Positions 1 through 46,750 of a DNA stretch of 64,000 bases are shown here, one piece after another. Within the stretch, counting starts at the first letter, position 1. Each line of letters opens with the position of its first letter. The stretch lies in assembly GCF_000384215.1 (NCBI RefSeq), contig NZ_KB913032.1, forward strand, positions 7,215,605 through 7,279,604, written 5' to 3'. The translations under genes were made by a program, and so were the position numbers. The notes under the pieces were generated by a model. That model made no database searches and was not told where the DNA came from. It saw only the letters and a list, made by a program, of their open reading frames with translations. This DNA is from Amycolatopsis alba DSM 44262 (lineage in GTDB: Bacteria > Actinomycetota > Actinomycetes > Mycobacteriales > Pseudonocardiaceae).

Positions 1-1296
1 ATCGGACACCGCGCTCCGCAGCACCTCGGTCAGCCCGGCCAGCAGACCGGCCGCGGTGGTCCGGTCGAACAGTTCGGCGTCGAAGTCCAGGATCACACTC
101 AGGCCGCCGCCAGTGGTGGGCGCGATGTCCAGGCCGAGATCGAACCGGGTGCCGCGTGGGGCGGGCAGCCGTTCCACGGTGACACCGGGCAGCCGTAACG
201 GCTCGCCGGGGGTGTTGTCCAGCGCCAGCATGGTTCGCACCAGCGGCGGCCGCGGGCCCTGGTGGTCCGGGTCGGCCTCCTGGCTGATCCGCTCGAACGG
301 CACGTCCTGGTGCGCGTACGCCGCCAGGCACACCTCCCGCACCCGGACCAGCAGCTGCCGGAAACTCGGGTCGCCGGTGAGGTCCACCCGCAGCGGCAGC
401 GTGTTCACGAAGAAGCCGACGACGCGGTCGAGTTCGGTGCTGCCGCGCCCGGCGACCGGGGTGCCGACGACGATGTCGTCCTGCCCGGACCAGCGGTGCA
501 GTACCACCGCCCAGGCCGCCGTCAGCGTCATGAACAACGTCGCGCGCTCGGCTTCGGCCACCGTGGCCCACCGCTCGACCAGCCCGGCGTCGAGGTCGGC
601 GGACACGCTGTCACCGAGGAAGCGGGAACGCGCCGGACGCGGGTGGTCGGTGAACAGTTCCAGTGGCTTGGCCCCGGCGAGTGTCCGGCGCCAGTGGGCG
701 AGCTGCCCGGTGAGCACCTCGCCTTCGAGGAAGTCCCGTTGCCATACCGCGAAATCCGCGTACTGCAGTTCCAGCTCCGGCAGCTCGGGGGCGCGGCCTT
801 CCAGCTGCGCCGCGTAGACCTCGCCGAGTTCGGCGACCAGTACGCCCAGCGACCAGCCGTCGACCACCACGTGGTGCATGCACAGCAGCAGCACGCACTC
901 CCCCGGCTCACCGTCGAGCACCCGCAGCAATGCGGACCGCAGCAAGGGCGGCGCGGCGAGGTCGAACTCGGGCTCGGTCACCGCGCGCATCGCCGCGTCC
1001 AGCCCGTCGCGGGTCGTGTCCACCACGCTCAGCGGGGCCACCGCGGTGGCCAGCGCCACCTGGGTCAGCGCACTGTCGGCACCGACCTCGACACCGGTCC
1101 GCAGCACCTCGTGGCGATCCACCAGGAACTGCAGTGCGGCCCTCAGGGCGGGGACGTCGACCGTGCCGGTCATCCGCAGCGCGCCGTTGATGTGATAGGC
1201 CGCCCCGGACCCCATCTGGTGCAGCAGCCACAGTCGTTCCTGGCCGAAGGAGGCGGGGAAGACGAACGACTCCGCGATCGCCTGCTGGTCAGTCAT
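1..1296 (-). CDS. NRPS, N-terminal condensation domain (cut by window edge)
   Basis: Start of a nonribosomal peptide synthetase; 432 codons are visible and the frame runs off the left edge without a stop. The visible part is a condensation (C) domain, which forms peptide bonds between carrier-bound intermediates. The order is typical: an entry motif SFGQERLWLLHQ, then RHEVLRTG, the catalytic HHVVVDGWS (HHxxxDG intact), and late motifs GFFVNTLPLR and HQDVPFERI. The ATG at 1296 overlaps the stop of the upstream NRPS gene by 8 bases (ATGACTGA), so the two are probably translationally coupled and sit next to each other in the assembly line. Domains after C, and therefore the residue added, cannot be seen. 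C-domain identity is certain; subtype is not assignable by eye. Confidence 0.93.
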   Translation of the reverse strand, partial: MTDQQAIAESFVFPASFGQERLWLLHQMGSGAAYHINGALRMTGTVDVPALRAALQFLVDRHEVLRTGVEVGADSALTQVALATAVAPLSVVDTTRDGLDAAMRAVTEPEFDLAAPPLLRSALLRVLDGEPGECVLLLCMHHVVVDGWSLGVLVAELGEVYAAQLEGRAPELPELELQYADFAVWQRDFLEGEVLTGQLAHWRRTLAGAKPLELFTDHPRPARSRFLGDSVSADLDAGLVERWATVAEAERATLFMTLTAAWAVVLHRWSGQDDIVVGTPVAGRGSTELDRVVGFFVNTLPLRVDLTGDPSFRQLLVRVREVCLAAYAHQDVPFERISQEADPDHQGPRPPLVRTMLALDNTPGEPLRLPGVTVERLPAPRGTRFDLGLDIAPTTGGGLSVILDFDAELFDRTTAAGLLAGLTEVLRSAVSD

Positions 1297-45629: not shown

Positions 45630-46750
45630 CCACGAACCTCGGCGGCCACGAGGACTTCCGCGCCACCGTCCGGTCCACTTTGGACAAGATCGTGACGCCG
45701 AACGCGTCGAAGTGGGAGGCCCAAGGCCATATCTCCGAGTCGGGATGGCGAGAACTCGGTGACGCCGGCTTGCTCGCGTTACCGCACACCGGAGTGGATT
45801 TCCTGCGCAGCGCAGTGTTCCTCGACGAACTGGGCAACACCGGCTACGCGGGGATCCGGGCGTCGGTCGGGGTGCACGCGTACATGGCGAGCTCGTATGT
45901 GCGGTTGTTCGGCAACGCCGAGCAGAAGGCGCGCCTGCTGCCGCCGGGCGAGCGCGGGGACAAGATCGCGGCGCTGGCCATCACCGAGCCCGAAGCGGGC
46001 ACCGATCTGCGGAACCTGACGACCAGCGCCGACGCCGACGGCTCGGGAGGATACCGGCTACGAGGGCGGAAGTCGTTCGTGGCCAACGGTTCCCAGGCCG
46101 GTTACTTCATCGTGCTTGCCAGGACCAAGGCCACCGGTACCGCCGGCGGGATGCCGGGGGCGAGTCTGCTGATCGTCGACGCCGACGCCGACGGGATAAC
46201 GCGACGGCCGCAGCCGATGCTGGGCTGGCGTGCCGCGGACATCACCGAGGTCCAGTTCGACGACGTGCCGGTCGCGGCCGGGCAGCTGATCGGCAAGCCC
46301 GAGCGGGCGCTCCTGTACCTCGTGCGCGCGCTGGACTTCGAACGGCTCGTCGCCGGCCTGCTCGCGGTCGGCGGGGTCCGGTACTGCCTGCGGCTGCTGA
46401 AGGAGTTCGCGCGGTCGCACCGGGTCGGAGACACTCCGCTGGGGTCGTATCAGGCTGTCCGGCACCGGATCGCCGACCTGGACGCCCAGCTGGAACTGGT
46501 CCACGGCTACGCGTACCAGGCGGCCACCCGGCAGAGTCTCGGGAAGCTGGACACGAAGTCGGCGTCCGTGCTGAAGCTGACCGCCACCGAACTCGCCGTG
46601 ACGGCCGCCCAGGCCTGCGTCCAGTACCACGGCGCCCGCGGCTATCTCGACGACGCGACCGCCGCGCGGCTGTACCGCGACGCGATGGCGGGCACGATCG
46701 CCGCCGGGACGAACGAGCTGCTGCGAGACCACATCTTCGAATCGATCTAG
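45626..46750 (+). CDS. Acyl-CoA-dehydrogenase-like protein, KtzA-type candidate
   Basis: 374 aa; GTG at 45626 overlaps the A-domain stop, with GGAGG upstream. Family motifs: ELGDAGLLALPHTG, ALAITEPEAGTDLRNLTT, RGRKSFVANGSQAGYFIVL, and LVHGYAYQAATRQSLGKLDT. At the C terminus the usual YEGT catalytic glutamate position reads AAGT (TIAAGTNELLRDHI), so normal dehydrogenation by that residue is unlikely. Encoded after a halogenase-carrier and an Ile-type A domain, it parallels KtzA, a flavoprotein that turns gamma-chloroisoleucyl-S-carrier into the cyclopropyl amino acid allocoronamate. A desaturase role is the alternative. It converges on xylA with a 4-base overlap, marking the cluster edge. Confidence 0.88.
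   Translation: MTTNLGGHEDFRATVRSTLDKIVTPNASKWEAQGHISESGWRELGDAGLLALPHTGVDFLRSAVFLDELGNTGYAGIRASVGVHAYMASSYVRLFGNAEQKARLLPPGERGDKIAALAITEPEAGTDLRNLTTSADADGSGGYRLRGRKSFVANGSQAGYFIVLARTKATGTAGGMPGASLLIVDADADGITRRPQPMLGWRAADITEVQFDDVPVAAGQLIGKPERALLYLVRALDFERLVAGLLAVGGVRYCLRLLKEFARSHRVGDTPLGSYQAVRHRIADLDAQLELVHGYAYQAATRQSLGKLDTKSASVLKLTATELAVTAAQACVQYHGARGYLDDATAARLYRDAMAGTIAAGTNELLRDHIFESI

Follow-up and report, generated by a model that had tools for sequence, protein, structure and literature searches.

Extent and gene content of the cluster

We analysed a stretch of 64,000 nucleotides from Amycolatopsis alba DSM 44262 (the window; positions 7215605-7279604 of a single 9.81-Mb contig, numbered from its first base, with negative positions left of base 1), which carries a nonribosomal peptide synthetase (NRPS) cluster joining two gene sets that would each supply a small-ring residue. 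One is an aziridine set, with the genes for diamino-dihydroxyheptanoic acid (DADH) and a homologue of AziU2, and the other is a cassette of an Fe(II)/2-oxoglutarate halogenase, a free isoleucine-type adenylation (A) domain and a flavoprotein. Gene calling used codon-position GC content over the window plus flanking sequence, and the genes were assigned with Pfam, NCBIfam and PDB scans (Table 1). The core spans approximately -15.7 kb to 46750 and therefore exceeds the window leftwards. Its right border was set at 46750, where similarity to a contig of A. coloradensis (132725 bases) ends directly after g53; this contig holds counterparts at 85-100% amino acid identity, in identical order, for every called gene from -40394 to 46750. 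The gene families and order given in a preliminary description of the window were borne out by these scans, while its left edge at base 1 has to be moved to about -15.7 kb. LysW, LysX and further NRPS domains, for which that description pointed leftwards, all lie left of base 1, and it had not named the AziU2 homologue, an NRPS with an acyl-AMP-ligase-like start, another condensation (C)-A-carrier (T) protein and the penicillin-amidase gene of the conserved set.

The two sets are kept together beyond this species. Among 390 genomes of the family, the aziridine set and the isoleucine-halogenase/A/flavoprotein cassette occur together in four, belonging to three genera: this genome (G000), A. coloradensis (G012) and two members of other genera to which the halogenase search led (G143 and G244). 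In all four, the DADH, AziU2, sulfate-donor/sulfotransferase, acylase, NRPS and halogenase genes are co-located, and G143 and G244 retain most core genes, including the glyoxalase-like one, at approximately 50-90% amino acid identity and in shuffled order. AziU2 was found in 15 of the 390 genomes, the halogenase in 30 and both in 6 (hypergeometric 4e-4, uncorrected for kinship); physical linkage is better evidence than this statistic. In G183, AziU2 and the halogenase lie on different small contigs and linkage cannot be judged. A search of seven named AziU2 genomes outside the set, run without a positive control, recovered the combination in none of them.

Table 1. Genes of the cluster core in window coordinates, with the basis of each assignment (TE, thioesterase)
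Gene or feature	Position	Strand	Basis
Glyoxalase-like gene, leftmost core gene	-15713		Pfam
Fatty acyl-AMP ligase (FAAL)-T-C-A-T NRPS	-11048..-5817		Pfam
g18, C-A-T protein with PhyH oxygenase alongside	left of base 1		Pfam
2-Oxoglutarate-Fe dioxygenase and BtrH_N protein	left of base 1		Pfam
g26, C-A-T NRPS (N-terminal part in window), A code DVPHMSTVD	-1889..1296	-	Pfam, code, tree
g27, C-T NRPS with only an A remnant	1289-3157	-	Pfam, domain scan
g28, type II thioesterase, GHSMG (serine)	3310-3960	-	Pfam, motif
g29, type II thioesterase, GHSLG (serine)	4211-4915	-	Pfam, motif
g30, C-A-T NRPS, A code DMYSGGLYC	4944-8321	-	Pfam, code
g31, penicillin-amidase-type N-terminal nucleophile (Ntn) acylase	8613-11240	-	Pfam, PDB, sequence
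g32, MFS exporter	11390-12652	+	Pfam
g33, M20 peptidase	13027-14367	-	Pfam
g34, CysN-CysC fusion (3'-phosphoadenosine 5'-phosphosulfate, PAPS, formation)	14387-16213	-	Pfam, NCBIfam
g35, CysD-like sulfate adenylyltransferase small subunit (PAPS_reduct family)	16213-17130	-	Pfam
g36, MbtH-like protein	17141-17362	-	Pfam
g37, C-A(Gly)-monooxygenase-A-T-TE terminal NRPS	17337-22502	-	Pfam, codes, sequence
g38, GNAT acetyltransferase	22655-23464	-	Pfam
g39, C-A-T NRPS, A code DVFDFGGVA	23638-26949	+	Pfam, code, clade
g40 and g41, acyl-CoA-dehydrogenase-like pair	26961-29167	+	g40 Pfam; g41 no family match, by eye
g42, sulfotransferase (Sulfotransfer_5)	29357-30013	-	Pfam
g43, C-A NRPS without T, A code DMYSGGLYC	30207-33266	+	Pfam, code
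LysK, DegT aminotransferase, transketolase N and C subunits, LysY, LysZ	33286-39494	+	Pfam, NCBIfam
g50, LuxR-type regulator with AAA domain, in all four clusters	39509-42163	-	Pfam
g51, Fe(II)/2-oxoglutarate halogenase fused to carrier	42717-43922	+	NCBIfam, PDB, sequence, tree
g52, free A domain, Ile-type code DAFFLGVTF	44085-45629	+	Pfam, codes
g53, KtzA-like flavoprotein, acyl-CoA dehydrogenase family	45626-46750	+	Pfam, PDB, alignment, synteny break

The aziridine genes and a candidate azabicycle-loading module

The DADH gene set is complete (LysW, LysX, LysY, LysZ, LysK, the aminotransferase and both transketolase halves, by Pfam and NCBIfam), with LysW and LysX lying between 5.8 and 2.7 kb to the left of the window. 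LysW has two CxxC pairs and the C-terminal sequence EDWGE, and its scores of 51.5 and 53.1 bits fall just below the TIGR01206 cut-off of 53.2. The same scans place the sulfate-donor genes (CysN-CysC and CysD) and a sulfotransferase in the core. The AziU2 homologue (192 amino acids), encoded left of base 1 next to the gene for a 114-residue protein, matches PDB entries 8gs1 and 7wuw (E 1e-44), and its structure model (pLDDT 85.5) superposes on the AziU3/U2 crystal structure with a Foldseek TM score of 0.87. In G143, AziU2 and its small partner form a single 296-residue open reading frame, for which no separately named AziU3 chain was matched in PDB; a single-sequence structure model of this fusion (pLDDT 46) was not used.

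According to the available part of a review, DADH is sulfated and a neighbouring amine then displaces the sulfate (PMC9570651). In the pathway that we propose for this cluster, LysW would carry glutamate through LysX, LysZ, LysY, the transketolase, the aminotransferase and LysK to DADH, CysD and CysN-CysC would make PAPS, and g42, the putative source of the sulfate leaving group for aziridine closure, would sulfate the intermediate, so that the AziU2-type protein and its small partner could close the aziridine as sulfate departs.

To identify the module receiving this residue, we read the nine code positions of the A domains at AziU2 loci and placed A domains in a tree. Exactly one A domain in each of 21 of the 24 AziU2 loci carries the code DVFDFGGV[AT] (18 loci) or a near-variant (G121, G237 and G026); of the three loci lacking it, one lies on a truncated contig and the other two, from rhizobia, yielded no A domain. 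All 21 domains form one clade (support 100/99), and a code of this type occurs in 0 of the 78 other A domains of the tree, which include 12 from three AziU2-free regions (G002, G088 and G223). For eight of these loci the sequence was obtained only once the pattern had been noticed: six match it exactly, and G121 and G237 differ by one or two letters and fall in the same clade. The window's member of the clade is g39, which, judging from this signature, probably loads the azabicyclic amino acid or its precursor. Counterparts of g40, which lies directly downstream of g39, were found in 8 of the 9 AziU2 loci checked for it. The g40/g41 flavoprotein pair would carry out an alpha,beta-dehydrogenation of the azabicyclic residue, as occurs in azinomycin.

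DADH genes with LysW, a sulfotransferase and an AziU2-type protein are common to this cluster and those of vazabitide A, azinomycin B and ficellomycin, whereas the halogenase/A/flavoprotein cassette, the FAAL starter, the Ntn acylase and the glycine-monooxygenase ending are additions here. The azabicycle-linked module and flavoprotein are common to the AziU2-bearing loci examined, a comparison to which the vazabitide, azinomycin and ficellomycin clusters themselves did not belong. AlkZ-type genes are present in some ficellomycin- and vazabitide-like clusters, as stated in the accessible part of one study (PMC9040887), but none of the four combined clusters has one within 100 kb on its contig. 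This absence was discarded as a distinguishing feature: at the 15 AziU2 loci of the 14 family genomes searched, no AlkZ-like match shares a contig with AziU2 at a distance of up to 100 kb.

Two further observations concern these genes. Some glycoside hydrolases contain a relative of the AziU2 family as their C-terminal part (GH95, 35% identity, E 4e-19; GH92, E 6e-13), and the weak fold matches that follow AziU2 itself (E above 0.001) include carbohydrate-binding modules, because of which a module that binds sugars may be the ancestor of the aziridine protein. In addition, LysW/LysX/LysY/LysZ/LysK/transketolase/aminotransferase genes occur a second time in this genome, at 0.83 Mb (locus approximately 2800-10170), close to a condensation domain; no AziU2 lies in the 20 kb fetched there, and no second strong AziU2 match was found genome-wide.

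The halogenase cassette and the assembly line

The halogenase domain of g51 is SyrB2-like (PDB 2fct, E 1e-132), with an HQA motif instead of HxD/E, and its fused carrier domain keeps an intact serine (FFEMGGTSL). The halogenases of the four combined clusters form one clade (99/98), with the carrier as a separate protein in G143 and G244. The code of g52 is identical in G012, G143, G244 and G088 and reads DAFFLGMTF in G223, with whose A domain g52 clades at full support (100/100). G223 encodes the whole halogenase/A/flavoprotein cassette at 74/58/60% identity to g51/g52/g53, and its flavoprotein aligns with g53 over a common DFER and IAAG pattern. The surrounding 63-kb stretch of G223 also holds a second Fe halogenase, an ornithine N-hydroxylase-like gene and two Trp halogenases, which we take to be the kutzneride gene set. 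The resemblance of our cluster to KtzA-KtzD of kutzneride thus extends over the Fe halogenase, the isoleucine-type A domain and the flavoprotein of the acyl-CoA dehydrogenase family, with the differences that here the carrier is fused to the halogenase and the cassette is combined with the aziridine set; unlike in kutzneride, no Trp halogenase match was found near this cluster.

KtzD chlorinates carrier-bound L-isoleucine, setting up the cyclopropyl ring of allocoronamic acid, according to the part of a review available to us (PMC12615548). Of the two outcomes raised in the preliminary description, the cyclopropane is favoured over chlorothreonine by the isoleucine-type g52 and the KtzA-like g53; a syringomycin-like chlorothreonine product was rejected on the basis of the g52 code and its clade with the kutzneride-like cassette. 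Similarity and motifs favour an allocoronamate-type cyclopropane, for which g52 would load isoleucine onto the g51 carrier, the halogenase would chlorinate it and g53 would expel chloride. The cyclopropyl residue could then be added in trans, for which the A-less g27 is a candidate acceptor. Two candidates for an aminoacyl shuttle were rejected: g12 (-20351), which reads as a P450 by eye, and an extra 412/418-residue gene of G143/G244, a Na/H exchanger (Pfam for the G244 copy, to which the G143 copy is 73% identical). The GC content falls to 0.62 at 42001-44000, around the halogenase, compared with approximately 0.70 elsewhere, and the halogenase may be a later acquisition.

Regarding chain initiation, the left NRPS opens with an A-type domain that we interpret as an acyl-AMP ligase, because it is followed by a DIP2-type domain and branches separately in the tree from A domains for amino acids. 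The acylase g31 has an N-terminal hydrophobic stretch (by eye), and the beta chains of solved acylases align with it from residue 313 (GSNGW). Its match to PvdQ is weak, at 38.9 bits (E 2.5e-10) where the curated cut-off is 950, and its best-scoring solved relative is a D-succinylase. In pyoverdine biosynthesis, PvdQ removes the acyl cap at export, and our cluster offers a works-like parallel to PvdL/PvdQ in joining an acyl-ligase-type starter on the first NRPS to an apparently exported hydrolase of the penicillin acylase family. The acyl-ligase starter and the apparently membrane-anchored g31 together suggest an acyl-masked precursor: by this analogy, assembly would start with a fatty acyl group on FAAL-T, and g31 would strip the cap at export. 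More distant penicillin-amidase-type genes (32-35%) lie approximately 20-32 kb from AziU2 in two other genomes (G121:C16:194916 and G214:C46:26346), and use of an acylase may recur in the AziU2 class. The g33 M20 peptidase has counterparts at 82-85% in G143 and G244 and at 57-74% in three other aziridine loci.

Within the chain, the g26 code lies in the serine-type clade, g30 and g43 have identical codes, and the absence of a carrier domain from g43 extends to G012 and G244. The C domain of g18 has HQIAFDQ in place of HHxxxDG (HRIAFDQ in G244) and may be non-condensing; because of this degenerate motif we propose no residue order. In G244 (G244:C150, approximately 43588-47493), the g18 C-A-T protein and the PhyH oxygenase are fused, for which reason the oxygenase probably acts on the residue, with a proline-type signature, held by g18.

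The terminal NRPS g37 has a Gly-type A domain with a monooxygenase inserted between motifs A4 and A5, followed by T-TE. A split Gly-type A domain, a luciferase-type monooxygenase and T-TE also make up the terminal modules of myxothiazol and melithiazol, encoded by MtaG and MelG; the differences are the all-NRPS context here and the lack of such a module in the relative G143. A monooxygenase at A4-A5 releases the peptide as an amide in myxothiazol and melithiazol, as reported in the accessible part of the source (PMC10204066). By analogy, assembly is predicted to end at g37 with oxidation of the terminal glycine, leaving a C-terminal amide.

A proposed peptide with two rings: evidence, rivals and meaning

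We consider it fairly probable that this NRPS cluster makes one peptide with aziridine and cyclopropane residues, an acyl start and an amide end. The proposal draws on gene content, co-occurrence, the AziU2 fold, the azabicycle A-domain clade, the isoleucine and glycine signatures and the position of the monooxygenase; that both residues enter one peptide we infer from their conservation together, and the reactions in this organism, the residue order, the hand-over and the removal of the acyl cap would likewise be deduced from these data.

Several observations weigh against this proposal. G088 and G223 have the halogenase cassette but no aziridine set. Of the 15 AziU2-bearing genomes of the family, 10 have no such halogenase near AziU2; nine of these ten have none genome-wide (E 1e-60), and in the tenth (G141) it is 1.3 Mb away. 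G143 has nothing corresponding to g17, g18, g27 or one of the two DMYSGGLYC modules, and it carries an extra C-A-methyltransferase-T module. Its counterpart of g37 has a partial A domain and neither monooxygenase nor TE, and with such differences in module content the four products would differ. The C-terminal amide claimed in the preliminary description is supported for the window cluster, given the layout of g37, and not for this relative. The small 114-residue putative AziU2 partner resembles AziU2 weakly and has no match to AziU3 itself. No SyrC-like cysteine acyltransferase was seen in the cluster, both free thioesterases having serine, and the A-less module was set aside as a weak sign of hand-over, A-less C-T proteins being present in three halogenase-free aziridine clusters (G201, G353 and G219a). 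Finally, five other actinobacteria have relatives of the acylase (50-55%) at a large distance from AziU2 or on a different contig, for which reason the role of the acylase here is not certain.

Some of these points could be accommodated if one locus made two products, an azabicycle-containing NRPS peptide on the one hand and, on the other, a chlorinated or cyclopropyl amino acid formed by g51-g53 that would be free or part of a different peptide. The stand-alone cassettes of G088 and G223, the lower GC content of the halogenase stretch and the position of the cassette at the cluster edge, behind a divergent LuxR regulator, would fit such an arrangement. We nevertheless regard it as quite unlikely, as we do the possibility, raised in the preliminary description, of two separate clusters: the cassette has been kept with the aziridine set in four genomes of three genera despite rearrangement, it includes neither a condensation nor a release domain, and the NRPS set includes an A-less module. 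Alternatively, the isoleucine-derived residue might stay chlorinated (gamma-chloro-isoleucine or a dehydro product), with g53 an ordinary dehydrogenase. This g53 does belong to the acyl-CoA dehydrogenase family, whose members are its nearest PDB matches; it lacks the glutamate of the YEGT motif while keeping that of DFER. However, the three-gene cassette and its active-site pattern equal those of the kutzneride-like G223 locus, and KtzD with its flavoprotein is reported, in the portion of that literature available, to yield the allocoronamic residue, which makes the loss of the cyclopropane unlikely.

On the aziridine side, DADH or an opened ring might enter or leave the product. The second DADH locus of this genome, with no AziU2 in the 20 kb fetched, suggests that DADH-type residues may be used without ring closure, but the AziU2 homologue, the sulfotransferase and the PAPS genes are kept in all four combined clusters, and we judge the loss of the azabicycle improbable. 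The last alternative concerns a neighbouring region (-48866 to -17606) with an N-hydroxylase/FMN_bind_2 fusion, presumably KtzI-KtzT-like and hence for piperazate, an Asn-synthase-like gene, a DUF6002 gene, a free luciferase-type oxygenase, a P450-like gene (by eye) and an MT-A-T-C-A-T-TE NRPS (MT, methyltransferase). This region adjoins the core and is co-linear in G000 and G012 from -40.4 kb, where the G012 contig ends, as would be expected if both formed a single assembly line for a larger peptide. Yet its NRPS ends in its own TE, it has its own LuxR gene, it is missing from the 100 kb of G143 and the 114 kb of G244 retrieved around the cluster, although most core genes are retained there, and the N-hydroxylase fusion finds partial matches only (34-40%) in these two genomes. 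Because the G143 and G244 stretches lack it, we read the piperazate region as a neighbour of the core and set the larger line aside as very improbable. Another genome of the same genus (G002:C1, approximately 422-469 kb) combines a KtzI-KtzT-like fusion with a different Fe halogenase in one NRPS region, and has no AziU2 at E 1e-25 or better.

Taking the single two-ring peptide as the preferred reading, we tentatively propose, with less assurance than for the window cluster itself, a family in at least three genera of acyl-masked and mostly C-terminally amidated peptides that would carry a 1-azabicyclo[3.1.0]hexane aziridine and an allocoronamate cyclopropane and be unmasked extracellularly by a dedicated Ntn acylase. 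Each half is already known and the combination is what appears to be new: we know of no earlier product with both rings, and found no description of an aziridine-halogenase combination in a literature search outside which most subscription journals lay. If the proposal is true, this would be the first known product joining both rings, and the four genomes would be sources of a peptide family with two reactive small rings, undescribed in the literature searched. The azabicycle A-domain signature would serve as a general marker of the class, allowing azabicycle clusters to be found and their building block assigned without compound isolation, with g39 as the module predicted to be first in line for assay.

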